Positions 38,013 to 56,174 of a stretch of 64,000 nt of DNA are shown here, one piece after another. The translations under genes and the position numbers were made by a program. The notes beneath the pieces are model-generated. The model was not told the DNA's origin. It did no database searches and saw only the letters and a program-made list of their open reading frames with translations. The stretch's first letter is position 1, and each line of letters opens with the position of its first letter. Source of the stretch: Bacillota bacterium (GTDB lineage Bacteria > Bacillota > Clostridia > Christensenellales > Pumilibacteraceae); NCBI GenBank assembly GCA_009779975.1, contig WRAY01000010.1:1-64000 (forward strand). Direction: 5' to 3'.

Positions 38013-39035
38013 GTGAGGCAGTTTAATAACAAAATGAAAGCAGAATTTGAAAATCACAAATACACAGTCCTTTTATATCCTCAAAGACAAGATGTCTGGA
38101 GAAAGGATGCTGTCTGCATAAAAAAAACAGTCGAAGAATTATCTCAAGTTGTGTCAAAATATGAAAAAGTTTTCCTAGGTCACAATGAGGATAATGTTCC
38201 AAAAATTAAATCAAGTGAACATCTAAAAGTTATCAACATTCCAAATGACGATATTTGGACAAGAGACACGGGACCTATTCCGTTAAAAGACGATAGTTTG
38301 GTTTCGTTTGAGTTTGATGCATGGGGCGGATTGTGCAAAGACACTGACAAAGACAGAGAGGTTGCACAAAAGATTGCTGATTTAGAGGGAAAAGAAACAA
38401 AAAAAAGTTTTTTAGTTTTAGAAGGCGGAAACATAGTTTCAGATGGACACGGAACACTGATGGCAATCAAAAGTTGTGTCATGTCCCGTAACTCAAAGCC
38501 GTTTGATGAGATTAAAAAAGAGTTAAAAAGTGTTCTTCAAGTTCAAAACATAATTTGGATTGAACGAGGACTTATTCATGATGAGACCGGCGGACACATT
38601 GACAACCTTTGCGTTTTTGCTGATATTTCGACAATTCTTCTTGCTTGGACAGATGACGAAAAAAATCCGCAATATGAAGTTGTGAGAGAAGCGTTTGAGG
38701 TTTTGTCAGTTGCGAAAAACATGTCTGACAAAAATTATAAAATTATCAAAGTCCCGCTTCCCGATATTTTTATGAAAAACAAAGAAGATGTATGCGGAGT
38801 TGAAATTGTCCATGGGACAAAAACAAGATTCGAAGGAGAGTCAGTTCAGCCAAGTTACATAAATTTTATGTTTGTTAACGGGGGTATTATTTTGCCGCAA
38901 TTTGGAGTTCAACAAGACGAAGAGGCATATGAAATTTTCAAAAAGATTTTTCCTAAGAGAGAAATAATTCGCTTTGAGGCAAGAGAAGTAGTTTTGGGCG
39001 GCGGCGGCTTGCATTGCATAAGCCGAAATATCTAA
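38013..39035 (+). CDS. aguA: Agmatine deiminase family protein
   Basis: Hydrolyses agmatine to N-carbamoylputrescine and ammonia, feeding putrescine synthesis. It is 340 aa from the GTG or 333 from the ATG at 38034. It has a guanidino-modifying (PPAD) fold: AEFENHKYTVLLYPQRQDVW, WTRDTGPI, LEGGNIVSDG, HDETGGHIDNLC, and the catalytic Cys in GGGGLHCISRN at the C-terminus. FDAWGG matches the family. The GTG start is 5 nt from the -10 and would be leaderless. It lies 54 nt before the accessory cluster with no terminator between, so co-transcription is possible and links polyamine chemistry to the AdoMetDC-like gene there. Confidence 0.88.
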   Translation: MRQFNNKMKAEFENHKYTVLLYPQRQDVWRKDAVCIKKTVEELSQVVSKYEKVFLGHNEDNVPKIKSSEHLKVINIPNDDIWTRDTGPIPLKDDSLVSFEFDAWGGLCKDTDKDREVAQKIADLEGKETKKSFLVLEGGNIVSDGHGTLMAIKSCVMSRNSKPFDEIKKELKSVLQVQNIIWIERGLIHDETGGHIDNLCVFADISTILLAWTDDEKNPQYEVVREAFEVLSVAKNMSDKNYKIIKVPLPDIFMKNKEDVCGVEIVHGTKTRFEGESVQPSYINFMFVNGGIILPQFGVQQDEEAYEIFKKIFPKREIIRFEAREVVLGGGGLHCISRNI

Positions 39036-39089: not shown

Positions 39090-40985
39090 ATGATAGAAAA
39101 AGAGGCAACGGTGCTGGATGAAATTCTTGCACTTATTGAGGTCAAGCAAGACCAAGAAACGAAAGATAAAGCGGTTTTTCGTGAACTAAAACACGACCAT
39201 CGTGAACTTTTGGGAAGAAAAATATTTGATGACTTGATGAAAAGACGCAAAGATGCCGAATTTGCAAACAAAACAATAAAATGTTTTTATCTTGATTCAG
39301 AAAATGAAAAAGTCGGATTGATGAGTATGCTGTATGGTTTGACCGGAATACTCAGTCTTATTAATAGATATAAACTAAAAGTGACCGCCAAACAAAAAGA
39401 AGAAATCAAAGAAATGGCGAGTGCGGTTTTAGCATATACCAAAAACAATGGATATGACGCATCGCCATATGTTAGTAATAAGATTAATGAAGAATTTTTC
39501 CTAAGTGAAGACAGAGTAAAAGACAGACTCAGTTACATGGGTGCAAGAACATGGGCTTTTTCGCTTTTTATATCTCTCTACACAAACGCCAAGGAATTGG
39601 GAATATCCGACGAAGATAAAAAAGAGGTTAAAAAAAGAATAAGAGAATGCACGCAATTTTTTGTCAAAAATGTAATAAGAGATGAAAACGGCAATCCGAC
39701 GGGATGGGGTTTTGCAGACGGTTGTGAAGAGCCGTCGCTATTTTTCACATATTCGGTTATTGAAGCGTTTTCGGAATTTGACGATGCATTTATGGGCGGT
39801 GCGGACGAAGAAGGCATTGATGAAGAAATGCTGGCGTTCATAAATAAAAACAGCGAAGTTAAATATGATGCAGAGTTTCTGGACATAGTGTTTAAAATCG
39901 GCGACAGGGCATGGGATTTGTTCAAAGACAAACTAAGAGACGAATTGTTCTCTGATGCCTTTGACAAAGAAAGTATTGCTCGCATAACAAAAGAACAAGT
40001 TGAAAACTCGTCTCGTTCTCCTGTTCTTTTTAACACGCTGTATGTTATTTTTATCTTGTTCTATTCTTATAAGAACAATCGTCAAACAAGAGGTTTGACT
40101 CATCTGACAGAAAAACAAAAAATAGAAAAACAAAAAATATTTGATGCCGATAATATTCAAGTTCAAAACGCAATGTCGCTTGCACTTCAAAATATTCAAA
40201 ATTTCTATGATGATATGCAGAGGAAAGGAAAAGAAGCGATTGTTGAGCGTAATGCGTTGATACTTAATCAAAAGCATGAAAGAAAAGGACTTGCAAAAGA
40301 GTTGAGCAGTGCCTCAATTCAAGCGGGCGGATTTATTCCGATGAGTGCAAAAGCAAACAACCTTATCGCCAGATATAACTACAAATTCCCCCAACAAAAA
40401 ATGGGACTTCTTCTGAATGATATTTTCATGATGAGGCGTCCTGATGAATGGCTTTGGTCGGAAAGGATTTTTGACCTTCTTGAAACTGAAAGATGCTTAG
40501 AATCTATTGCAGACTTTTTTGACTACTACAAAGAATTTGAACAGCCTTTTGTTTCAAAAAGTTTAGATGACACTCGAAGACGAAAGGAAATAAGAGAAGA
40601 TTTGGTAAAAACATTAGGTCCTGCTGCGGAAAAAAGAGCAGAGGAAAAAATGAAAATGCAGTTGGAAAAGGAATTGCATGAGAAATTAGAAGAGGAAAGA
40701 CAAAAATACACAATTGAAATAGCGATTAACCAAAGGATTGAGAGTAAAATAAATGAAGGAATTGTTTCGTTCATAGAAGAATTTGTGAAAAATCCTTCGG
40801 AAAAAGCAGCAGCCTCAACAGTGGATAATGAGTCCGACAAGAATGCTATTGAGGAGAAAAGACAACAAATGCTATCTTCAAGCAAAGAAGATGTAAAAAA
40901 GGCACTGCAAGAATTCTTCAAATATATTGATGTTGAAGGAAAATCACTAAAAGATATTTTCACACTACTAGGAGGAAAAAAATAA
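39090..40985 (+). CDS. Large helical protein of unknown function, first gene of the accessory cluster
   Basis: A 631-aa soluble, acidic, mainly helical protein. A middle segment (GARTWAFSLFISLYTNAKEL, then GWGFADGCEEPSLFFTYSVI) resembles the GWGF-type repeats of alpha/alpha toroids such as prenyltransferase or squalene-cyclase folds, but key catalytic motifs are not seen. Residues about 490-560 are a strong coiled coil (KRAEEKMKMQLEKELHEKLE). A conserved-looking DIFMMRRPDEWLWSERIFD lies near 450. GGAGG precedes the ATG. It opens the run that includes the ATPase and the AdoMetDC-like gene. The function is unknown; it may be a scaffold or sensor for that set. Confidence 0.7.
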   Translation: MIEKEATVLDEILALIEVKQDQETKDKAVFRELKHDHRELLGRKIFDDLMKRRKDAEFANKTIKCFYLDSENEKVGLMSMLYGLTGILSLINRYKLKVTAKQKEEIKEMASAVLAYTKNNGYDASPYVSNKINEEFFLSEDRVKDRLSYMGARTWAFSLFISLYTNAKELGISDEDKKEVKKRIRECTQFFVKNVIRDENGNPTGWGFADGCEEPSLFFTYSVIEAFSEFDDAFMGGADEEGIDEEMLAFINKNSEVKYDAEFLDIVFKIGDRAWDLFKDKLRDELFSDAFDKESIARITKEQVENSSRSPVLFNTLYVIFILFYSYKNNRQTRGLTHLTEKQKIEKQKIFDADNIQVQNAMSLALQNIQNFYDDMQRKGKEAIVERNALILNQKHERKGLAKELSSASIQAGGFIPMSAKANNLIARYNYKFPQQKMGLLLNDIFMMRRPDEWLWSERIFDLLETERCLESIADFFDYYKEFEQPFVSKSLDDTRRRKEIREDLVKTLGPAAEKRAEEKMKMQLEKELHEKLEEERQKYTIEIAINQRIESKINEGIVSFIEEFVKNPSEKAAASTVDNESDKNAIEEKRQQMLSSSKEDVKKALQEFFKYIDVEGKSLKDIFTLLGGKK

Positions 40986-41208: not shown

Positions 41209-42141
41209 ATGGTTCACATAACAACATTCTTTTCATACAAAGGCGGAGCAGGCAGAAGTTCAACTTGTCTTAACACCTTGCCTTATTTAGCAACAGAGTT
41301 AAACGCTAGCAAAAATGCACCGATTCTTCTAATCGACATGGATTGGAAAAGTGCCGGCATGACATACTTGCTAGACCAAGAAAAAACATTTCGCTCTAAG
41401 GACAGAGATGATATTATAAGATACATAAAATCACAAAATACTTATTCGCCGAAAATAGACGGCAGCATTTTTGACCATCCGATTTTTAAAATGTTTGTTC
41501 CTGTCGGGAAAAAATTAGGTCTCAAAGACGATGATGCAGTCATGTTTTTGGGGGTTGATGACCAAGAAAAAATAAGTCAGGAAGAAGCGAAAACCGGCGG
41601 TTATGCAAAAATTGATGCAATAAGAAGGTTTTGTGCAAATTCTGAAAGAAATGCTCAAAAGATAAAAGCAATGGTCATAGACTCATCTGCCGGCGACCAA
41701 GAATCGGCAGAAATATCGACAAGAGCGGCAACTGATTTAGTGACTTGCTTTAGGGCAACAACACAGTTCAGGAAAGGAACATTTAGTTATCTTGAAAGAC
41801 TTCAAAGCGAGAATCTAGACCAAGACAAAAGGATATTCTTGCTTCCGACAGTAATACCGCCAAATGTTGAAATTGATAAAGTTTCTCAACTTGAATCAAC
41901 AGTCAAAAATATCAGAGCCTTGCTTGATATCTACAAATTCCAAACAGTGAGAGAGGATTTTATTGATGAGAAATGTTTCGGAATAAATGAAGTAACCAGA
42001 TTCAAATGGCAAGAGGGAGTGCTTTTTGAAATTGCACAAAAACAAAGTTTGGCAAAAGACGAAGAAGAGGCAGTAAAACGCTATTCAAAACTAGCAAAAT
42101 TATTAAGTGAGGATGACGAAGAAGATGATGACGATGAATAA
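41209..42141 (+). CDS. ParA/MinD-like ATPase with KGGAGRS Walker A
   Basis: A 310-aa SIMIBI-class P-loop ATPase. It starts HITTFFSYKGGAGRSSTCLN: a deviant Walker A in which the usual K-T/K-S pair is R-S, keeping the signature first Lys (KGG). The switch-I Asp is in LLIDMDWKSAGMTYLL, and the Walker B/switch II region is MVIDSSAGDQESAEIS. KGGxGR-type members commonly accompany TIR and other effector genes rather than plasmid partition. The C-terminus is acidic (DDEEDDDDE). AGGAGG with a hairpin just before it drives translation. The next gene overlaps its end. No ParB is near, so partitioning is unlikely; signalling or assembly control is inferred. Confidence 0.85.
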   Translation: MVHITTFFSYKGGAGRSSTCLNTLPYLATELNASKNAPILLIDMDWKSAGMTYLLDQEKTFRSKDRDDIIRYIKSQNTYSPKIDGSIFDHPIFKMFVPVGKKLGLKDDDAVMFLGVDDQEKISQEEAKTGGYAKIDAIRRFCANSERNAQKIKAMVIDSSAGDQESAEISTRAATDLVTCFRATTQFRKGTFSYLERLQSENLDQDKRIFLLPTVIPPNVEIDKVSQLESTVKNIRALLDIYKFQTVREDFIDEKCFGINEVTRFKWQEGVLFEIAQKQSLAKDEEEAVKRYSKLAKLLSEDDEEDDDDE

Positions 42142-44431
42142 CAATAATATGACCCCAAAAAAATTTGCAGACTATCTCAACAAAAAAGTTTGTGCTAATG
42201 TTCTTGAGATTATTTTTGACGGCTCAAGTGTTGTTGACGCACAATGCCTAAAAGATGTCAAGGTAGTTTCTCAAATGCTGACTTTTGGGTTTGTTTTTTC
42301 ATATGTTAAGTTCAAGCAAGATTTCATAGACAACTATGATTTTCCTTCAACTTCAAATTCAAAAAGGGTTTTTGATGTTTTCAAAACTATCTACAGCGGT
42401 GAAAATATTGCTCTGGATTTGATGATATATGCAATAACAGAAATGCAGATGGATGTTCTGAAAAACGGAGACAATTCTTATTTTAGAGGCGTCATTGCTC
42501 CTTTAAAGGGCGATATGCAAATCCCGTCTCTTAGAGAACCTATAAAAAAATGGCTGCAAAACGAAACATACGCAGAGAAAAATCCATTGGTTATTCTTGA
42601 GATGTTAATGGCAGTGTATCACTCGTTTCCATTTTTGGAGAAAATAGAGGTAAACTACAAAAAAGAAGAAGAGTTGCCTTTTAAGAGTTTGATAGAATTT
42701 ATTAATCCTCAAACAGAAAAGACCTACCCTTCATTTTTGACATTGGTTGAAAATGATTTTGGAGTTTATTATCTATTTAGTTATGAAGGAATACCTTCTG
42801 AAAACAATGAAGAAAAAACTAAGTTGACTTATTATTCATTGTGCGGTGCGACATCCTGCAGTGAAGATTTACCGACAAAAAAATTCAACCCTTTTTTTAA
42901 GCCGAGTTGCCTCAAAACCAAAGTAAAATCAGAACCGATTTTTGCAAAGTCTTTTTTTTCCTTGAGTTACAGAAACATCAAAAATCTTTCTCTTGCAATC
43001 AGTGATGTCATCTCAGACGAAACAAAAGATGAACTGGAAGACAGGTTCGAGACAAAATATATTGACATTTTCAAATTCGGAAAAAAGAAAAGTGAATTAA
43101 ATTGGGACAACATAATAACGATTTTAATGATTGATTTAGGACCGAGTGCATTACTAGAAATTATTTTGGGCACAGACGGACTATACTTTAACAACATTTT
43201 AAAAAATCTTGAAATGCGTTATATAGGCTGTAAAGAGGCTAAAAACTTTCGTGAAAATGTCAAAAAAAAGTATTATTCCGCTCTTGAAAATGAAGAAAGA
43301 ATACTCAAAAGAATGAGCGGAGAAGCACTTTCTCCAAAAAATAAAAGAGCATTAAAACGCTCATTAATGGCAAAAAGCATAATCGTTGAGATGACAAATC
43401 TTGACGAGGCAAAAAAGAACAAACAAGAAGTCAATATCTCAATTGCTGAAAGTTTGGTCGACAAAATAAAAAAGGTTAACAAAATCATTAACAACACAGC
43501 ACTCTCAAACAGTGCTGCAATTTTGAAAATCAATCGGGAACTGGAGGCAATTTTCCGACACATAATTCCGTTTTACTGCGGAATACTTGCGTATCAAGAA
43601 CACAAAGAGAAAATGTGGAGAGAGGTTGTTGATGAGAGTTCGGTAAACAAAGAAGAAGTTTTCAATGAATGTGAAAGAAGATTTTTTGAAGCGGCAAAAA
43701 ATGAAATAGTGAAAATAAAAAAGAGCAGTCTCGGAGAACTCATAGGAGCGTTTAGAGCGCTTTGCCATTCTGTTTTTTCATGTGAAAAGAAAGCAACGGA
43801 TAAGCAACTGGAGAATTCAAGATTGCTGAACGGAGCAATCGGTAGAGGTTATGTTTGTTCTTACGGGGCTTTTGAAAAGATTTTGAAAGTAAAGTGCGAT
43901 GAAGATATGGACAAAGAAATGGTGAAAGGAGACAAGAGGATGGAATGGTTTTTTAACACCGAAAAACATTCAAAGCCGCTCGAAGATGTCTATGCCAGTT
44001 CAATTTTGTATGAAAATTTTCTCTACACCGTCAAAGACCTCCTTGACTTTTTGATGTATAACCAAGACTATGAAAAAGAAAGGGTTTTAGGCAAGCAAAT
44101 TTCCTATGACCCTGTTTATCCTTTTGTTGTCAGATACGACACGAAAAGTGAAAACAGAGACGGCTATAACATCAACAGTTTCAGAATATCATCACTTGAC
44201 GAAGGTCTTTCACACGATGAAGATATTGTCACCGGCGTAAAAATACTATCAGAGAGAGAGTATTGCATAAACGAAAAATACTATTGCATACCAAATGCCG
44301 CCTCATCAAATTCAAGATGGTGGATTGAACCGTTCTTGATAAATTGCAGAAAATATGACCAAATGATTTGCGGTGTTTTTAATGAAGAAACAAACGAAGA
44401 AAAAAAGAAATCCATAGATAAGGAGACCTAA
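42125..44431 (+). CDS. 768-aa protein of unknown function, cluster gene
   Basis: It is translated from overlapping sequence at the end of the ATPase gene. Several ATGs (42125, 42128, 42134, 42149) are possible starts; 42125 is taken because GAGG lies 12 nt before it, but MTPKKFADYLN at 42149 reads most like a natural N-terminus. The protein is soluble and mixed alpha/beta. A Lys/Glu-rich helical region spans about 380-470, with Cys-rich patches (SCSEDLPTKKF, ALCHSVFSCEKKAT). The C-terminal 120 residues look globular (YDPVYPFVVRYDT, SSNSRWWIEPFLIN). No family was recognised. Tight coupling to the ATPase and to the AdoMetDC-like gene (4-nt gap) argues for one functional unit. Confidence 0.7.
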   Translation: MMTMNNNNMTPKKFADYLNKKVCANVLEIIFDGSSVVDAQCLKDVKVVSQMLTFGFVFSYVKFKQDFIDNYDFPSTSNSKRVFDVFKTIYSGENIALDLMIYAITEMQMDVLKNGDNSYFRGVIAPLKGDMQIPSLREPIKKWLQNETYAEKNPLVILEMLMAVYHSFPFLEKIEVNYKKEEELPFKSLIEFINPQTEKTYPSFLTLVENDFGVYYLFSYEGIPSENNEEKTKLTYYSLCGATSCSEDLPTKKFNPFFKPSCLKTKVKSEPIFAKSFFSLSYRNIKNLSLAISDVISDETKDELEDRFETKYIDIFKFGKKKSELNWDNIITILMIDLGPSALLEIILGTDGLYFNNILKNLEMRYIGCKEAKNFRENVKKKYYSALENEERILKRMSGEALSPKNKRALKRSLMAKSIIVEMTNLDEAKKNKQEVNISIAESLVDKIKKVNKIINNTALSNSAAILKINRELEAIFRHIIPFYCGILAYQEHKEKMWREVVDESSVNKEEVFNECERRFFEAAKNEIVKIKKSSLGELIGAFRALCHSVFSCEKKATDKQLENSRLLNGAIGRGYVCSYGAFEKILKVKCDEDMDKEMVKGDKRMEWFFNTEKHSKPLEDVYASSILYENFLYTVKDLLDFLMYNQDYEKERVLGKQISYDPVYPFVVRYDTKSENRDGYNINSFRISSLDEGLSHDEDIVTGVKILSEREYCINEKYYCIPNAASSNSRWWIEPFLINCRKYDQMICGVFNEETNEEKKKSIDKET

Positions 44432-44435
44432 ACTA

Positions 44436-45233
44436 ATGCTGCATATAATGCTTGATGCTTATAAATGTACTGACGAGAAAGCGGCGGATATGAGTTCGAT
44501 TTATTCAGTAATATCACGGCTCACTCATTCGCTTGGGGTAAAAACGATTGCACCGCCGATTTTAGTGCCGTATTATTATGGAAAAGAAAAAGCCGATGAC
44601 GGAATAAGCGCTTTTGTTTTGCTCAAAGGCGGACATTTTACTATTCACACTTTTCCGGAAAGAGAATGTTATTTTGTTGACATGCTTTATGACGGCTTTT
44701 TTAATCCTGAGAAATTCCAGCAGATTCTTTCAAAAGAGTTGCCGTTCGGAGTATTTAAAATTGCCAGTATAGACAGAAGGTTTGATGTTATTTCACAACA
44801 AAAAGATTTAAGGATTGACGAGTGCAAAGATTTTGGACCGCATTACCTCATCAAAGGTGAGAATGAGATTGAGTTGAATATCGACAAAATTTATCACTTC
44901 TTGGACAGATTGCCTCCAAAGGTAAACATGACTCCAATCATGCGTCCTTATGTCATGACCGATGCTTTGAAAAAACCGACCTATATCAGCGGCATAACTA
45001 TGATAGCAGAAAGTCACATAGCGCTTCACTATCACATTGAAACAAAGACATTTTTCGCCGATGTTTTCTCATGCAGTTTTGTAGACGCTGCAAAAGTGCA
45101 AAAAGAAATTGAGAAAGAGTTGGGAGTAAAGTGTGAAAACGCCCTTATATCCCGCGGCTCAAAACACACCCACCGCCTCCCATCCCGGGAAGAATTCACT
45201 TCTCGATATGACAATTGGAGAGAGAATATTTAA
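44436..45233 (+). CDS. Tandem S-adenosylmethionine decarboxylase-like protein
   Basis: 265 aa made of two AdoMetDC/SpeH-like halves. Half 1 (about 1-120) keeps GGHFTIHTFPE and VDMLYDG, but the cleavage-site Ser is Gly66 and the later Cys is replaced (Asp86); only His71 matches. Half 2 (about 140-262) has AESHIALHYHIE and ADVFSC: Ser193, His198 and Cys213. Their spacing (5 and 15) equals that of the prokaryotic class 1b enzyme (Ser63, His68, Cys83 in Thermotoga). It could therefore self-cleave to a pyruvoyl enzyme with one active half. Normal bacterial class 1b enzymes are single 120-130-aa domains. It may make decarboxylated SAM, or sense SAM. The start is 4 nt after the previous stop, with AGGAG. 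Confidence 0.82.
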   Translation: MLHIMLDAYKCTDEKAADMSSIYSVISRLTHSLGVKTIAPPILVPYYYGKEKADDGISAFVLLKGGHFTIHTFPERECYFVDMLYDGFFNPEKFQQILSKELPFGVFKIASIDRRFDVISQQKDLRIDECKDFGPHYLIKGENEIELNIDKIYHFLDRLPPKVNMTPIMRPYVMTDALKKPTYISGITMIAESHIALHYHIETKTFFADVFSCSFVDAAKVQKEIEKELGVKCENALISRGSKHTHRLPSREEFTSRYDNWRENI

Positions 45234-45500: not shown

Positions 45501-47108
45501 ATGGAAAAAATAAAAGAAATATTAAAGCCTATTAAAAAAATAAAAGACAAAGTTGAAGAAAAAATAAAAGAAAAAACAACTTCAAATTCAACTGAGCCGA
45601 CTTTGGTCAAACATTTCACAAAGTTTGTCTATCCTTTCAGGTTCACAAAAAATGATAAAGCATCCCGCCTTAATGAAGCAATAACCAGCGGAAAGGGAAC
45701 TGAGATGAAATTGTTTTTATCAACAGGTATTGACGGAAGTGAATTGAGAGGGGGCGTTAGTGAATACTATTCTGACAAGGAAGATGAATGCAGTTCAAGA
45801 ATTGCAAAATGTTATCGTCTCAACGACCAATGCAGACGGCATTTCAATTTGCCGCAAAGAGCAATTGACTTTTTGATATTCACTGCTCGCGGGGACAATG
45901 CTCAATATAAAATTCAGTTAACTGATGTCAGAATATTTTTGTTTGAGACAGGGGTTGGATTTTTGGAGGTTGAGTGTGTGTATCCTGAGGGAAGCACAAT
46001 AAATGACTATCTTGAATGCAACTATTTTATCAGTGAAACAAAGGGAACAAAAGCAGATGTTAATGTTTTTTCCCACACTCGAAAACTTGACAAAGACACT
46101 GAAGAAGTCATGGAATTCAAGTTGAAAGACTTGCTTTTAAATGTTTTGTCCTATGTCGGTGATGTTAGACATTTTGAGGGTGACTCAACACAATTCAGCG
46201 ACAAGAACACAGTGATTTATTCTTATGCCCTTTTGACAAAAGAGCCGAAAACTTTGCCTTATGACCTTGCAGCAACTCTATTTTTAGCACGAAAAAACTT
46301 TAAAGGTTCTTATAAATTTCCTCAAAGAGAATATGACATAGCAAGCAATCGCAATATTTTTCAGTCATTTGGAAACTCTTATTGGGCAACTTCTCAATGC
46401 GGAACAATTAATTTGAGTCACTTGACTGATGACGAAACAACAAATGATTTTTTTAAAACACTTTTTCCATCAAAACTTCGCAATGCCTACTATCATCTTT
46501 TTTTGAGTGTTTTGCACCAAAAATATGCAATGTATATTCTGTCTCGAATTGAATGCCTTGAAAAGATTGAGAAAAATTATGAAGCGTCAAAAAAACAATT
46601 AAAAGAAGTGAGAGAAAATCAAGAAAAAGCAGCACTGCTTAAAATGCGTGCGTTTTTCAAAAATCCGTCAAATCATGAACACATCAACAAATATTTTGAA
46701 CTGCTTAATGTAACTTATGAAATTGAAGAAATCTATAAAGATTTTTGCGATAGTATTCAAAGTGCCGAGACAATATGCGACACCCATGTTGCAAAAATTG
46801 AGTCCTATGAAAACAAAATAGCAGCATTGAAAAAAGAAAAAATAAGTGTAATTTTAACAGTTTTTACTCCGGTCGTTGCTTTCATCACCGTTTTTCGGAT
46901 ATTATGGGAAGTTTTGGAGTCTTTTTGGAGCGAACAATTAACTTTTGCTGACCCCCAAATATTCATCATGGCAATTGTTTTGGCATTTCCTGTCATGTTG
47001 ATTTTGCTTGGATTGGTGCGAAGAATGAAAGAAATAAGGAAACTAAAAAGAGAAATACAAGAAATGTGCAAAATAGAAGGTGAGGAAAAGGTAAGAGGTA
47101 AAAAGTAA
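45501..47108 (+). CDS. Membrane protein with large cytosolic domain and C-terminal two-TM hairpin
   Basis: A 535-aa protein. A Lys/Glu-rich amphipathic N-terminus (residues 1-30) is followed by a soluble domain to about 335 that includes TARGDNAQYKIQLTDVRIFL and DLAATLFLARKNF. Helical and coiled-coil sequence runs to about 450. Two TM helices (VILTVFTPVVAFITVFRILW and IFIMAIVLAFPVMLILLGLV) and a basic helical tail close it. This layout (cytosolic domain, long helix, two TMs at the C-terminus) recalls CorA-type or pore-forming effectors, but no CorA GMN motif is visible. It is the first gene of the promoter-led second operon, ahead of the TIR protein. The function is unknown. Confidence 0.7.
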   Translation: MEKIKEILKPIKKIKDKVEEKIKEKTTSNSTEPTLVKHFTKFVYPFRFTKNDKASRLNEAITSGKGTEMKLFLSTGIDGSELRGGVSEYYSDKEDECSSRIAKCYRLNDQCRRHFNLPQRAIDFLIFTARGDNAQYKIQLTDVRIFLFETGVGFLEVECVYPEGSTINDYLECNYFISETKGTKADVNVFSHTRKLDKDTEEVMEFKLKDLLLNVLSYVGDVRHFEGDSTQFSDKNTVIYSYALLTKEPKTLPYDLAATLFLARKNFKGSYKFPQREYDIASNRNIFQSFGNSYWATSQCGTINLSHLTDDETTNDFFKTLFPSKLRNAYYHLFLSVLHQKYAMYILSRIECLEKIEKNYEASKKQLKEVRENQEKAALLKMRAFFKNPSNHEHINKYFELLNVTYEIEEIYKDFCDSIQSAETICDTHVAKIESYENKIAALKKEKISVILTVFTPVVAFITVFRILWEVLESFWSEQLTFADPQIFIMAIVLAFPVMLILLGLVRRMKEIRKLKREIQEMCKIEGEEKVRGKK

Positions 47109-47149: not shown

Positions 47150-50122
47150 GTGAGAGAAGAAACAACACGAATTTGTCAATATTGCAGTGCATCATTATCA
47201 GGCATCTCTGGACGACGGGTTAGGTGTCGTTTTTGCGGTGAAGAAAATTTTATTACTGCTTGGAGCGGTGAAGTTCAATCGCTTTTGGACTCTGCTTCAA
47301 ATTTTAGAAATCTGAAACAGCACTATAACGCTTTAAAAACTTACTCTGATATATTAATCATTGACCCAGAATGTACCGAGGCTCTTTGGGGAAGGCTTTT
47401 GGCAAACTATGGAGTTGAGATTATCGGACGAGAGGGGGATGTAAAATTTATTATCACCTTTTTGCAAGAAACACCGCTTCAAAATAACAATGACTACAAC
47501 ACACTTTTGTTGGTTGTGAGGCGAAAACTTGACGGTGAGAGTGAAGCAAAACAATATGAAAACTTTGCTCAAAAAATTGAAAACCTCAGACAAAACACAC
47601 TTGAAATAACAAAAACCCTTGACCCTTATGATGTGTTTATTTGTTTTAGTGACACAGAAAAAAACATTGAAGGCAGAAAACTAACTGACTATGATGTTGC
47701 GCTTTCACTCTATGAAAAACTGGAACGGGAAGGTCTGAATGTCTTTTTCTCAACGCAAAGTCTTGCAGGGATTAGCGATGAAGAAAAAGAGCCGATAATT
47801 TATCATGCGCTAACAACTGCAAAATCAATGGTTCTTCTTGCAACAACAAATGAATGCTTAGAAGAGACAAGCGTTCACAACCAGTGGTCAAGATTTTTTG
47901 ACATTCGACTAAAAGACACTCGAAAAGAACTAATCACTTATTTTTGGAAAACCGTCAGACATAATCTTCTTCCTGACACTTTGAAAAACTATTTTAGTTC
48001 TTCAAAAAGCGACATAAGAGTTCATGATGACGAAAAAAGAAGCATCAAAAATCTGTCTCAAAAAGTTTTGGAGGTCAATGCAAAGTTTTGCTCAACCGAA
48101 AAAATTCAATTAAGAGAAAGTGATTTCAAAAACGAAAAAGAATCAATAAGAAGAGAAAAAGTTGACCTAGGACTTGAAAAAAGACAGAAACTCGGCACTC
48201 ACAAAATTGCCTCAATCTCAGCAGACGCAAAAGAATTAATTGCTTCTGCTAAAAACGCAATTAAAAGAGGTTCATTCACATTTGCGGAAAAACTAATCTA
48301 TGAAGATCTACTCCCTGAAAAGTCAAATAATCATGAAGTAATTCTTTTAAAACTTTTCACAAAAAGCGAAGCGAGAGACCTTGACGAACTATTTTCTCAT
48401 CACAGAAATCTATCAAATCGAGAACTAATCGACCTCTACATAACTCACGCTCCAAGAGAAAGCAGTGAAGAATTTTTAAATTGCTGGATTGAATTAATCA
48501 CCAATTTAAAAGGGGTTAACTCACTAAAAGAAAGTTTGAAAGACATTGAATATATTGTTCAATTTGATGTCTCTCGCCACAAGCAACTAGTAGACTTTGT
48601 TGAAAAAAAGGCAATTGAGACACTTGATAGCGACATTATCGAAACACTGGAAAGATGTCTTTTCAGCGGCGATGTCGGAAGATTTGTGTTTTTATATTCG
48701 TCGCTCGGAAAAAGACACTTTGCAAAAAAAGACAAAACAAAAGCACTGTTCTATTTTGACAAGGCACTTGAATTGGATGAAGGGCATCTCGGAACTCTTT
48801 TTGAAAAATACAAAGTCAAACATTTCAACGACAATATTTTTACTTCTGAGGCAAGAGCAGACGCACTTAGTATATTTGAATTTAAGCATTGCAAGCCCGA
48901 AACAAGGGAAAAGTATCTTGACAAAATAATCGACACGCTTATTGAAGAATGTGAATGCACGACAAAACTTTGTTTTGAAAAAAATGTCGACTACTATTTG
49001 CCGTTCTACAACCGCAAAAAAGACCAACAAGTCATCATTAACAAAGTCTACAACGAAATGCACAAATTCGGCTTTTTCAATATTGCTGAAAAATATTGTG
49101 CTGTTGCAATCAGCCTTGAGCCAAGGGCAAGACATTATTTTAATCTTTTGCAAATCAAACTCCATTGCTACTCTCAAAACGACCTCATTAACTTCAAAGA
49201 CCCCGAGATTTACAAAACTGACGAATTCAAACAAGCAATAAGAGCGGCAGGGAGCGAAGGCAATGAAAAATTTATAGACACTCTCAACGAGTTGTCAAGA
49301 AAGCAGCAAGAAAATATAGTTTCAAAAAAAGCAAAAAGAACTGCCCCTATTCCGCCTTCGCCCGAGCATTGCGTTCTTTTGGAAAACGCAAGACTAAAAA
49401 AGAAATTAGAACAAGTTAAATTTGAAAAAGAAGCAATAAAACTCGAAAAAGAAATAGTCAAAGCGGAAAAACAAAAACTAAAAGATAAAAAACATGTTTA
49501 TATTGTTTTTGCATTAGTTAGCGGAATAGCATTGCTGTTTGCAAGTCTTGCAGGGACTATATTCATTTCTCTTACAAGGGCTTTTCCTAATCCTCCTCGT
49601 TATCCGTCTCTTTTTAACTTAGGTGCGGGAATAACAGATTTTTTTAGACAAATTTTTGGAGATGGATTTTGGAACAGCGGACTAGAGTCTATGCCTATCA
49701 TCTTTAATATTTTGTTTTATTCAGGAATTATTTCAATTTTAGTTTGGACACTACTCAAAAAAAAGAAAATAAGTGCTATCTCAAAATTCCTAATTGCTAT
49801 CGGTTCAATTGTTTTTGTCCTTAATATTGTTGCTTCAACATCATTGCTAATTGCTAATTCGAACGATATCGGAAGAGGTTTATTAAATGGTGCAATCCAT
49901 ATTTTTAGTCAATTTGTTGGCGGAGGCTTTTGGCAGCATGTAAGTCTATTATGGCTGAGTGGAAGTTCCGAAATCCTTGCAACTCTCAATTTTGTTTATT
50001 ATATTGCCCTAGTAATGTTGGGGCTGGGAATTTTCCTTCACCTAAAACAAAAACGAGAGCAAAAAATAGTTCATCAAATTGAAAAAAAATACTCTCAAGA
50101 GTCCGATGTTAACTCATTATAA
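47150..50122 (+). CDS. Zinc-ribbon/TIR/TPR membrane protein
   Basis: A 990-aa multidomain protein with a GTG start after GGAGG. Residues 9-29 form a zinc ribbon (CQYC, CRFC). Residues 45-110 are TPR-like. Residues about 158-285 form a TIR domain: PYDVFICFSDTEKN, GLNVFFSTQSLAGI, EEKEPIIYHALTTAKSMVLL, then NQWSRFF. The Glu cluster at 211-214 is where bacterial TIR NADases place the catalytic Glu. Residues 350-720 are helical/TPR repeats (KTKALFYFDKALELDEGHLG). A charged coiled coil spans 740-780, and four TMs lie at about 782-808, 848-869, 876-902 and 942-965. TIR enzymes cleave NAD+ or make cyclic-ADPR signals in antiphage defence; here the membrane tail suggests a bound sensor/effector. Confidence 0.82.
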   Translation: MREETTRICQYCSASLSGISGRRVRCRFCGEENFITAWSGEVQSLLDSASNFRNLKQHYNALKTYSDILIIDPECTEALWGRLLANYGVEIIGREGDVKFIITFLQETPLQNNNDYNTLLLVVRRKLDGESEAKQYENFAQKIENLRQNTLEITKTLDPYDVFICFSDTEKNIEGRKLTDYDVALSLYEKLEREGLNVFFSTQSLAGISDEEKEPIIYHALTTAKSMVLLATTNECLEETSVHNQWSRFFDIRLKDTRKELITYFWKTVRHNLLPDTLKNYFSSSKSDIRVHDDEKRSIKNLSQKVLEVNAKFCSTEKIQLRESDFKNEKESIRREKVDLGLEKRQKLGTHKIASISADAKELIASAKNAIKRGSFTFAEKLIYEDLLPEKSNNHEVILLKLFTKSEARDLDELFSHHRNLSNRELIDLYITHAPRESSEEFLNCWIELITNLKGVNSLKESLKDIEYIVQFDVSRHKQLVDFVEKKAIETLDSDIIETLERCLFSGDVGRFVFLYSSLGKRHFAKKDKTKALFYFDKALELDEGHLGTLFEKYKVKHFNDNIFTSEARADALSIFEFKHCKPETREKYLDKIIDTLIEECECTTKLCFEKNVDYYLPFYNRKKDQQVIINKVYNEMHKFGFFNIAEKYCAVAISLEPRARHYFNLLQIKLHCYSQNDLINFKDPEIYKTDEFKQAIRAAGSEGNEKFIDTLNELSRKQQENIVSKKAKRTAPIPPSPEHCVLLENARLKKKLEQVKFEKEAIKLEKEIVKAEKQKLKDKKHVYIVFALVSGIALLFASLAGTIFISLTRAFPNPPRYPSLFNLGAGITDFFRQIFGDGFWNSGLESMPIIFNILFYSGIISILVWTLLKKKKISAISKFLIAIGSIVFVLNIVASTSLLIANSNDIGRGLLNGAIHIFSQFVGGGFWQHVSLLWLSGSSEILATLNFVYYIALVMLGLGIFLHLKQKREQKIVHQIEKKYSQESDVNSL

Positions 50123-50316: not shown

Positions 50317-51396
50317 ATGCCAAGAAGTAAAAAAGATTTTTCAACCTATAACATTCAAAATGAACGCCCCGGAGACTTGTTTTCAAGGCAATGCGTTTTA
50401 GACACTGTCACAAAGAAATCGGAGTTTATTGTCGCCGACGGCTATGTTGCGTTTGTTCTCCGTGACGGAGTTCGCCAAGAAACTATCCGAAGCGGCAGAC
50501 ATCAACTTTTCGGAAGAAAAGGTGTTTTTGGCAAAATCGATGTCAAAAGAATGGGCGGATTTAATATTATTTTCGTCTCAAACAACACCTCAAAAAATAT
50601 CGTCCCATGGGGAATTCCAAGTAAAGAAATGGAAATGAAAGACCCATTGACGGGCGTTGATTTTTCAATGGCTTCCCATGGCGAGATGACAATAAGGGTT
50701 GCAAATCCTGAAAAATTCTATGAAGAATGGCTTGTCAACAAGCCTGAGGGTTTTTCAGTTCTTGATTTTCAAACACTGGCACTCACTAAAATTAAAATCA
50801 AAGTGAGAGAAGCAATCTTGAAAACAATTCGTGAACAAGATATTCCTTATCACAGAGTTGACGAGAGAACAAACGACATAGCAAGAGGCGTTCTTAAAAT
50901 TTTGCAAAACGAATTTGCAACGCATTTTGGAATTAATGTTGCAGATTTCGGCATCATCAAAATCACCATCCCTCAAGACAGAAAAGAAGAGATGATGAAA
51001 AAATATGATACGGCAAGGGCAAAACGAGAAGAAAAAGACGACATCAGAGAAACTCTCGACATGCTTGAAAGGATGCAAGACAGAGAATGGGAAAAAGAAA
51101 AATTCCTAATCGAGTTAAAAGCAAGAAACTATGACAAATACTTGCAGGTTTGCCGTGCAATCGGCTGGGAAGGAACTGCTCAAACAAAAGCAAAAGGCAA
51201 AGCGGAAAATGTTAAAGCGGGCGGATTTTGTAATAAATGCGGAAAAATGTTCGCAGAAGGCTGCGAATTCTGTTCAGGTTGCGGCAACCGAGTTTCAGCC
51301 CAAGCGTGCAAATGCGGAAATATTTTAGCACCCGGTGCTATGTTTTGCAACAAATGCGGAACAAATGTCGGAAATATCAAGGAGGAAACAAAATAA
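50317..51396 (+). CDS. SPFH-domain protein with C-terminal zinc ribbons (YdjI-like)
   Basis: 359 aa. Residues about 35-235 form an SPFH/band-7-like domain of the virion-core/YdjI type: VADGYVAFVLRDGVRQETIR, SGRHQLFGRK, MASHGEMTIRVANPEKFYEE. Then comes a charged helix (DDIRETLDMLERMQDREWEK) and two double zinc ribbons at about 300-352 (CNKCGKMF, CEFCSGCG, ACKCGNIL, CNKCGTNVG). It lacks an N-terminal TM. In Bacillus the relative YdjI acts with PspA-type proteins at the membrane under stress. Here it is followed, with a 1-nt overlap, by a small coiled-coil protein, and it shares the zinc-ribbon theme with the TIR protein and the protease. Confidence 0.88.
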   Translation: MPRSKKDFSTYNIQNERPGDLFSRQCVLDTVTKKSEFIVADGYVAFVLRDGVRQETIRSGRHQLFGRKGVFGKIDVKRMGGFNIIFVSNNTSKNIVPWGIPSKEMEMKDPLTGVDFSMASHGEMTIRVANPEKFYEEWLVNKPEGFSVLDFQTLALTKIKIKVREAILKTIREQDIPYHRVDERTNDIARGVLKILQNEFATHFGINVADFGIIKITIPQDRKEEMMKKYDTARAKREEKDDIRETLDMLERMQDREWEKEKFLIELKARNYDKYLQVCRAIGWEGTAQTKAKGKAENVKAGGFCNKCGKMFAEGCEFCSGCGNRVSAQACKCGNILAPGAMFCNKCGTNVGNIKEETK

Positions 51397-53008: not shown

Positions 53009-53797
53009 ATGGAATGTCCAAAATGCCTTGCTTGTCCTGTTCAGATAACAAGCGAAAATGAAAAAGAAACGACAATAAGATGTCCGTTTTGTTTATACTC
53101 TGGCAAAATTGTCTCAAACAAAGCGTTGAAAGACAAGATTAACAACGCTGTTCAAGACGCCCTAAAAGACTTAAAAGTCCCGGGAGGCGAAGCGGTCTAT
53201 TCAAAAAACCGTCCTGCTGTCGTTGAAATTAATTCAAAGTATAAAATCGGCGGAGGCAACTCAAGCGGTTTTGTTATTAATGCTAAAGATGGTTATATCA
53301 TGACAAACGAACATTGCGTTGTCCACAAAACTCACGGAGCGGCAGTCCAAGTCACAATAACGGACGAGAACGGCAAACAATTTTCTGCCGACATTGTTAA
53401 CTATGGAAAACCAAACGGAATTGATGACCTTGCAATGCTTAAAGTGAAAGGAAAATCAGAACTCACAACTCAAACAACACTGGGCTGTTCCGACGCCGTC
53501 AAAAACGGACAAAAACTTTTCGTCATGGGAAATCCTCATGGTGAAGGAATAAGCATCACTAGCGGAATTGTCGGCGACACAAAAAGAAAAAGAGGTGAAG
53601 GCGTCCAAATCATGACGGATGCAGCAATAAATCCCGGAAACTCAGGAGGTCCTGTTTTTAACCAAAACGGCGAAGTAATAGCAGTAGTAGTCGAGTCAAA
53701 ACTAAATGCCGACGGCATGAGATACTCAATTCCAATTAACCACGCTAAAGATTTCATCAAAAAAACCGAAAAGAAAATTAAACAAAAAATTATCTAG
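53009..53797 (+). CDS. Cytosolic trypsin-like serine protease with N-terminal zinc ribbon
   Basis: 262 aa. Residues 3-28 form a zinc ribbon (CPKC, CPFC). Residues about 65-255 form an S1C/HtrA-type protease: His102 in MTNEHCVVH, Asp140 in GIDDLAMLKV and Ser212 in NPGNSGGPVF, with GNPHGEG and SGIVGD as further family marks. There is no signal peptide, TM or PDZ domain, unlike DegP/HtrA, so it should act in the cytosol. It shares the zinc-ribbon theme with the cluster's TIR and SPFH proteins, perhaps as a docking module. Trypsin-like proteases are recurrent effectors in bacterial immune clusters. AAAGGAAC precedes the ATG. Confidence 0.88.
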   Translation: MECPKCLACPVQITSENEKETTIRCPFCLYSGKIVSNKALKDKINNAVQDALKDLKVPGGEAVYSKNRPAVVEINSKYKIGGGNSSGFVINAKDGYIMTNEHCVVHKTHGAAVQVTITDENGKQFSADIVNYGKPNGIDDLAMLKVKGKSELTTQTTLGCSDAVKNGQKLFVMGNPHGEGISITSGIVGDTKRKRGEGVQIMTDAAINPGNSGGPVFNQNGEVIAVVVESKLNADGMRYSIPINHAKDFIKKTEKKIKQKII

Positions 53798-54740: not shown

Positions 54741-56174
54741 ATGTTTGAAGAAAAATTGAAAAAGCATTTTGATGGAATGATTGTCAAAAAGACAAATTCG
54801 CAAAGTATTTTTGCATCGCTTTCGCTTCCGAGTTTTATTCGGGATTGGTTTTTGAAAAAGTATGCCGACAAAAACGGCGATGTTAATGTTAACTTTATTT
54901 CCGAAAGAATAAAGGAGATTTTGCCGAGCAAAAAGGAATGGAACAGACTTCTTGACGGTGCTATCGCCGGAGAAAAAGTCAAATTCCTTGGTCGAATAAA
55001 GGCTCGCCTTGACATAAAAAACGGTCGGGTGAATTTTGAGTTGCCTGACTTTGGAATAACTTATTCCGAAACTTTTATTCCGTCTCACACTTGGAACAAA
55101 TTCAAAGACGGTTTTTTGAGAAGTGACGAAGATGTTTGGGGCATTATTGAATTGGGTTACCTTGAGGCTGAAATGTCGCCGACAAAAAAAGGACTTCTTA
55201 TCTTAAAAAGTTTTCAATGTTTTCGTCCCTACACACCCGACCTTGACTATTTCAAAGCGGTTAGGGCGGAGTTTGATTTTGACGAGTGGCTTGATGTTTT
55301 GCTTTCTGCAATCGATTATAATCCCAATGCCTACAAAACAAAAGAAGGCAAAATTGCAATGCTTACCCGCCTATTGATATTCGTTGAAAAACGCCTCAAC
55401 CTTATTGAACTTGCGCCCAAAGGAACAGGGAAGTCTTATCTTTTTTCCCGCATTTCAAAGCACGGTTGGCTTGCAAGCGGCGGCGTTATGACAAGAGCAA
55501 AAATGTTCTATGACATGAACCGAAAAGAAAAAGGACTGGTTTCCGGTTATGACTACATCGCCTTAGACGAAATTTCAACAATAAAATTTCCTGACGCAAA
55601 TGAAATGCAAGGGGCTTTAAAAGGATATTTGGAGAGCGGAACTTTCACTGTCGGTAACAAGTCAGGAAACGGCGATGCGGGCATGATACTCCTTGGAAAC
55701 ATTCCGTCAGATATGTTCAACACCGAAATCAACATGTTCCAAACTCTCCCTCCGATATTTGCAGAGAGTGCATTAATCGATAGATTCCACGGCTTTATTG
55801 AAGGCTGGAATATTCCGAGAATGAGCGAGTCGATGAAAGTCAACGGTTGGGCATTAAACACCGAATATTTTTCAGGAATTATGAACGCACTTCGAGGAGA
55901 TATCACTTCATCGGGGCTAGTGAATAAATTGGTAGATGTTCCGAAAAACTCCGACACAAGGGATGTGACGGCAGTTCGCAGACTAACAAGCGCTTATCTC
56001 AAACTATTCTTCCCTCACTGGAAAGATGTTAAAGATGTCAACCTTTCTGAATTTGAAGAATACTGTCTAAAACCGGCAGTTCATATGAGAGGCATAATCA
56101 AAAAACAACTCTGCATAATCGACAAAGAGTATCTAAATTATCCGTTGCCGACATTTAGTATTAAAGCAATATAA
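54741..56174 (+). CDS. BrxL-like AAA+ ATPase without Lon protease domain
   Basis: 477 aa. The N-terminal DNA-binding/OB-like region of BrxL proteins is followed by an AAA+ domain with Walker A LAPKGTGKSYLFSRI and Walker B YDYIALDEISTI. GGVMTRAKMFYDMNRKEKGL and the sensor-like GNIPSDMF also follow the family. Full BrxL proteins of BREX systems are about 680 aa with a Lon-like C-terminus; that domain and its Ser-Lys dyad are absent here. The protein ends soon after the AAA+ lid, and a perfect terminator follows, so this looks like a natural short form rather than a truncation. No PglX, PglZ, BrxC or BrxA/B genes are present. AAAGGAG precedes the ATG. Confidence 0.85.
   Translation: MFEEKLKKHFDGMIVKKTNSQSIFASLSLPSFIRDWFLKKYADKNGDVNVNFISERIKEILPSKKEWNRLLDGAIAGEKVKFLGRIKARLDIKNGRVNFELPDFGITYSETFIPSHTWNKFKDGFLRSDEDVWGIIELGYLEAEMSPTKKGLLILKSFQCFRPYTPDLDYFKAVRAEFDFDEWLDVLLSAIDYNPNAYKTKEGKIAMLTRLLIFVEKRLNLIELAPKGTGKSYLFSRISKHGWLASGGVMTRAKMFYDMNRKEKGLVSGYDYIALDEISTIKFPDANEMQGALKGYLESGTFTVGNKSGNGDAGMILLGNIPSDMFNTEINMFQTLPPIFAESALIDRFHGFIEGWNIPRMSESMKVNGWALNTEYFSGIMNALRGDITSSGLVNKLVDVPKNSDTRDVTAVRRLTSAYLKLFFPHWKDVKDVNLSEFEEYCLKPAVHMRGIIKKQLCIIDKEYLNYPLPTFSIKAI

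Follow-up and report, generated by a model that had tools for sequence, protein, structure and literature searches.

The window (the whole 64,000-nucleotide stretch of DNA analysed here) contains an operon of four genes, A to D, the last of which encodes a protein of two fused halves with the fold of S-adenosylmethionine decarboxylase (AdoMetDC). Judging from residue conservation and gene context, it is fairly probable that D is a pyruvoyl-dependent L-arginine decarboxylase with one composite active site, and that it closes an A-B-C-D conflict or immune operon. The features discussed below are collected in Table 1.

Table 1. Genes of the module region and key residues of D, with window coordinates.
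Feature	Coordinates	Strand	Description	Evidence
Agd	38013..39035	+	agmatine deiminase family; GHIDN and C-terminal GGGGLHC kept	PF04371 E=1.7e-89; sole copy found in source genome
A	39090..40985	+	conserved gene at the head of the operon; 631 aa, motif GWG...PSL.FTY.V.EA, no recognised family	
B	41209..42141	+	MinD/ParA-like ATPase, deviant Walker A KGGAGR[ST]	NCBIfam NF047398 E=1.7e-13, 51 bits, below cut-off of 90
C	42107..44431	+	about 774 aa (start codon uncertain); helical for the most part, two beta-rich regions; no recognised family	
D	44436..45233	+	tandem AdoMetDC-fold decarboxylase, 265 aa	ORF, Pfam, orthologues, AlphaFold2 model, conservation
Asp54 of D	44595..44597	+	aligned with T. 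maritima Pro51	invariant, 81/81
Ser58 of D, half 1	44607..44609	+	equivalent to T. maritima Ser55	invariant, 81/81
Gly66 of D, half 1	44631..44633	+	at pyruvoyl-Ser position	Gly 74/81, Ser 7/81
His71 of D, half 1	44646..44648	+	equivalent to His68	invariant, 81/81
Ser193 of D, half 2	45012..45014	+	predicted pyruvoyl-forming serine	invariant, 81/81
Cys213 of D, half 2	45072..45074	+	equivalent to Cys83	invariant, 81/81
E	45501..47108	+	CorA-like, two C-terminal hydrophobic segments (residues 446-473 and 480-511)	
990-aa protein	47150..50122	+	TIR_2 and TPR	TIR_2 E=8e-4, below cut-off

Gene D encodes a tandem protein with the AdoMetDC fold

Pfam AdoMet_dc (PF02675) matches two stretches of D with E=1.8e-28 and 99.5 bits against a cut-off of 25, and the halves also match separately (E=2.1e-15 and 1.4e-11) in an AdoMet_dc search of the whole genome. 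This confirms the tandem AdoMetDC-like protein described in the initial annotation. The score against TIGR03330, 72.9 bits, falls slightly below the cut-off of 75.65. An AlphaFold2 model built with 17 orthologues as input (pLDDT 85.8, pTM 0.84) finds its best structural match in the AdoMetDC of Thermotoga maritima (TM 0.81 by target length, E=2.5e-6), and the prozyme structure 5tvm is also among its matches. A profile search against structures likewise returned the AdoMetDCs of A. aeolicus (5e-8) and T. maritima (2e-6). D thus has the AdoMetDC fold of SpeD class 1b.

Orthologues of D are found in dozens of genomes at 34-63% identity, so the tandem arrangement is far from a chance product. Their distribution is patchy, with D present in 16 of 396 genomes of the order. 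A phage origin was considered and rejected, as D has no relative among the viral contigs searched (viral_contigs) and only weak SpeD-type matches in the phage collection. Two adjacent speD-type genes do occur in the Microcystis phage MaAM05 (MW495066.1, 248252-249063).

D probably has a single composite active site

Residue conservation was counted in 81 distinct D homologues. In the first half, S58, G66, H71, F73, P74, E75 and D86 occupy the positions of S55, S63, H68, W70, P71, E72 and C83 of the T. maritima enzyme, while the second half contributes S185, E192, S193, H198 and C213. Several details given in the initial annotation are borne out: S193, preceded by E192, is followed by H198 and C213 at spacings of 5 and 15; the first half has the HTFPE motif with its histidine (H71); and a glycine (G66) lies at the pyruvoyl position of that half, leaving a pyruvoyl serine in the second half only.

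Contrary to the further proposal there, catalysis is probably not a matter of the second half alone. Both S58 and H71 are invariant, and S185 (77 of 81) and H198 (79 of 81), their counterparts in the second half, are not; the half-1 cysteine position (D86 here) varies freely. Active sites of the AdoMetDC fold are shared between halves: the half that supplies the pyruvoyl serine also supplies the cysteine, and its partner provides the histidine (PMC1282579). S193 and H198 lie five residues apart on a single strand of the D model (residues 193-200), a placement that makes H198 an improbable partner for S193; H71 should fill that role. The invariance of S58 and H71 indicates that the first half is a partner half, not a dead half. 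Together with the published fold architecture, the conservation of S58, H71, S193 and C213 suggests that D probably has one composite active site, to which the second half would contribute S193 and C213 and the first half S58, H71 and part of the substrate pocket. The equivalents of the catalytic Ser63, His68, Cys83 and Ser55 of AdoMetDC are all found in D as one composite set, in each of the 81 homologues. S193 would cleave itself to form the pyruvoyl group, and of the two sites in the ancestral dimer only this one would remain. Asp54, also invariant, is a candidate guanidinium-binding acid.

A conserved module with D in last place

A, B and D occur together in all 50 distinct B-bearing loci when iterated profiles are used, and C is detected by profile in 47 of them. 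The median gaps are short: 12 bp between A and B, 2 bp between B and C, and 4 bp between C and D. In this operon the last position invariably belongs to D. The 50 loci were gathered through D, so the count is silent on how often A-B-C occurs without D; such loci were sought separately via B. A is a helical protein, and B copies mostly carry KGGAGR[ST] or KGGSGR[ST]. Only scattered, inconsistent matches were obtained for A (against Pfam, NCBIfam and PDB profiles) and for C (against Pfam and PDB), with no PDB match below E 0.001 for the fold of C. A short form of C (about 230-270 aa, the N-terminal part only) is encoded in a set of agmatine-deiminase loci (L047, L049, L065, L067, L068, L073, L086, L124 and L059). 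In one subgroup of D-bearing loci, D is followed by a conserved radical-SAM gene and then by a gene resembling PPDK/PEP-utilising enzymes (L026, L027, L046, L054, L055, L066, L081, L083, L087 and L093).

A TIR gene lies upstream of A in 39 of the 50 distinct module loci (in L059 it stands beside Agd), in agreement with the TIR/ATPase context first noted for D. These genes belong to three upstream families, and a Pfam search of representatives of each confirmed TIR_2. E is found in eight other module loci, the window included, where it stands in for the upstream TIR gene. TIR and E never share a locus (Fisher p=3e-7, with loci treated as independent though they are related). The remaining three loci, which have neither, lie on contigs that are short or start near A. 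A TIR and a membrane protein that exclude each other in this way recall how effectors are exchanged in known immune systems. The family of the 990-residue TIR protein was found only in the window among the loci compared, and its membership of the module is therefore uncertain; other TIR genes are conserved with the module.

D itself can be replaced. B is present in 24 of 396 genomes of the order, eight of which have no D, and all eight of these keep A and a TIR protein. In three loci (L164-L166) a GNAT acetyltransferase takes the place of D behind TIR-A-B-C, and in three more (L167-L169) a radical-SAM enzyme lies upstream of A and D is absent. The last two, in which TIR is fused to a C-like protein (L170, 2651-7247, minus strand; L171, 709-4884, minus strand), replace D, within the same operon, by a CxxCxxCC protein together with a PLP decarboxylase of the Orn/Lys/Arg type (E 2e-68 and 1e-69). 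That a non-homologous amino-acid decarboxylase fills this position supports amino-acid decarboxylation as the job of D.

Further downstream in the window, an SPFH/band-7 protein with zinc ribbons (50317-51396) is encoded behind the TIR gene, and a distant relative lies downstream in L086. A BrxL-type Lon-like protease (54741-56174; PF13337 E=1e-109) is encoded near the module, with a trypsin-like peptidase (53009-53797) between the two. The proximity of the BrxL-type gene suggests a defence island.

Arginine is the best reading of the substrate

The recurring partners of D are enzymes that use agmatine. In 22 of the 32 D loci without A-B-C, an agmatinase gene (PF00491) lies directly upstream of D at a distance of -69 to +10 bp. 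Ten PF00491 neighbours were scored: the agmatinase model TIGR01230 outscores the arginase model for all ten and is above its cut-off for seven, while the arginase model falls far below its own cut-off in every case. A pairing of arginase with an ornithine decarboxylase was rejected on this basis. Agmatine deiminase is encoded upstream of A in 17 of the 50 distinct module loci, the window included. Two loci combine agmatinase with the A-B-C module (L056, identical to L109, and L113), and their D proteins nest with moderate support in the agmatinase-associated clade of the D tree. In the other 31 module loci neither agmatine deiminase nor agmatinase is found nearby. Conversion of arginine to agmatine by D would explain both kinds of partner, and D is therefore best read as a putative pyruvoyl-dependent arginine decarboxylase. 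D also has the context published for SpeDA: an agmatine-using partner, with SpeE either absent or accompanied by a separate SpeD.

The initial annotation had suggested that D might lower SAM, make decarboxylated SAM (dcSAM) or act as a SAM sensor. Production of dcSAM and depletion of SAM by D were rejected on three grounds: loss of the adenosine-binding glutamates, absence of SpeE (spermidine synthase) and the nature of the partner genes. A SAM-sensing role fits these observations no better. AdoMet binding involves one glutamate contacting the base and another contacting the ribose (PMC1282579), and neither of the equivalents of this pair (T. maritima E62 and E72) is conserved in D, with E192 kept in only 28 of 81 homologues (Gln in 53) and E75 in 4. 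SpeE has no match in the source genome or in 15 other D-bearing clostridial genomes, that is, in 16 of 17. Of the 37 D genomes, six have a strong SpeE match (E 1e-31 or better; G431 and G438-G442), each with a separate additional AdoMet_dc gene; a few D-bearing Bacilli have marginal SpeE matches only, and G127 is the exception, with a SpeE-like match of 6e-28 and no second SpeD. Arginine and ornithine decarboxylases have been found as SpeD homologues in just such settings, lacking SpeE or beside a second SpeD (PMC10407285). That D is nonetheless a true AdoMetDC, making dcSAM or depleting SAM for the module, is decidedly unlikely. The nearest solved structures of D are AdoMetDCs, the TIGR03330 score falls little short of its cut-off, and a spermidine synthase adjoins D in L126 and shares a gene string with D in L114; the genomes of these two loci are among those with a separate SpeD. 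One proline is fully conserved in true AdoMetDCs and not in SpeDA (PMC10407285). If this is Pro74, in the HTFP motif, it is kept in the first half of 68 of 81 D homologues, as an AdoMetDC would; the equivalent position of the second half is Pro in only 4 of 81. The marker favours neither reading.

Three other explanations were considered. A SpeDC-like ornithine decarboxylase, making putrescine directly, would belong to a known branch of the fold that occurs in SpeD-SpeDC fusions and is marked by four diagnostic residues, Gln, Thr, Phe and Tyr (PMC10407285). The PLP decarboxylase replacing D in L170 and L171 comes from a family with ornithine as well as lysine and arginine members and would fit this function too, but an ornithine decarboxylase would provide no substrate for the neighbouring agmatinase or agmatine deiminase, and we consider it quite unlikely. 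It is unlikely, too, that D is an ordinary polyamine-biosynthesis gene that happens to lie beside a defence island. Such a role would suit the Bacilli-type loci, where D is tightly paired with agmatinase and does not need A-B-C, and whose genomes mostly have no OKR-type decarboxylase. It sits poorly with the constant presence of D at the end of the A-B-C loci, at a few base pairs from C, across many families and with a patchy distribution. In five Agd-bearing genomes examined, moreover, the module Agd is the only one and no good N-carbamoylputrescine amidohydrolase match was found, which makes a housekeeping polyamine route via Agd unlikely in those five. Putrescine carbamoyltransferase scored below the model cut-off in all eight genomes searched, although there are several related carbamoyltransferase matches of about 300 bits. 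Finally, D could be a catalytically dead metabolite sensor. One of its two ancestral sites has gone, and trypanosomatids regulate AdoMetDC through pseudoenzyme partners; however, the two serines, the histidine and the cysteine of one complete site are invariant in all homologues, and a dead sensor is very improbable.

Proposed function of the module

From its gene composition, the module looks like an undescribed TIR conflict or immune system. With D as an arginine decarboxylase, A, B and C would sense a trigger and gate the response, and the TIR protein, directed at NAD, or the membrane protein E would act as the effector that kills or arrests the cell. D would turn arginine into agmatine and thus, along with the loss of arginine, provide a small-molecule input, which the deiminase or agmatinase present in some loci would consume and clear. 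Agmatine might serve as a ligand or as a co-substrate of the TIR protein, or its synthesis might merely drain arginine. A broader idea, which we offer tentatively and regard as rather unlikely, is that these loci form a new class of TIR or membrane-effector immunity. Its immune signal would have as co-substrate or ligand an amine made by the decarboxylase, probably agmatine, and each variant (decarboxylase, GNAT or radical-SAM) would provide or alter a small molecule of its own.

The operon would then link arginine and agmatine chemistry to TIR-type bacterial immunity, a link for which we found no precedent among the open-access papers searched. More broadly, the analysis brings out a conserved TIR/ATPase module whose decarboxylase can be exchanged, and this offers concrete genes to test.

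Comparison with known systems

Among the open-access papers searched, none was found that brings together a TIR domain, S-adenosylmethionine decarboxylase and anti-phage activity, though a description elsewhere is possible, and none was found for KGGVGR. No PADLOC model matches A, C or D, and B matches only a weak part of one. Like Thoeris and other TIR systems, the module combines a TIR gene with partner genes; unlike Thoeris, it gave no ThsA match, nor any CRISPR match, among the module proteins scanned. The CorA-type membrane protein E as an alternative effector recalls the CorA effectors of type III CRISPR systems. B resembles the MinD/ParA-like (KGGVGR) conflict ATPases (PMC7159879) in being a deviant P-loop ATPase in a multi-gene operon of conflict type. 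That paper, the nearest survey of conflict systems, describes MoxR-vWA and related systems, and no decarboxylase-TIR-ATPase operon was found in its relevant passages. AdoMet decarboxylase has also been linked to operons of the PspA/band-7 type, a different setting (PMC11237479).

Among relatives of D itself, SpeDA likewise has the AdoMetDC fold, occurs together with agmatinase or agmatine deiminase, and is found where SpeE is missing or a separate SpeD exists (PMC10407285, PMC9992855). The SpeDA proteins of these papers have a single domain, whereas D is tandem; no tandem SpeDA, nor one within a TIR operon, was found in them. The SpeD-SpeDC fusions of Desulfotignum phosphitoxidans, Omnitrophica and Victivallis vadensis (PMC10407285) are closer in architecture, a single chain of about 270-320 residues joining two class 1b halves, and the V. 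vadensis fusion, like D, keeps a single cleavage site. The working AdoMetDC of these fusions is the N-terminal half and they adjoin speE; D has its pyruvoyl serine in the C-terminal half, mostly lacks speE, and is partnered by agmatine enzymes or the TIR module.

The initial annotation compared D to the eukaryotic layout, and this holds for the fusion of two halves but not for their order. Eukaryotic class 2 AdoMetDC also arose by internal duplication and has a single composite site, as proposed for D, but its N-terminal half supplies the pyruvoyl serine and cysteine and its C-terminal half the histidine and the ribose-binding glutamate. In D these roles are swapped and the ribose glutamate is not conserved. 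If our reading is right, D mirrors the layout of eukaryotic AdoMetDC but acts on another substrate, and fused proteins with a single site evolved on more than one occasion.
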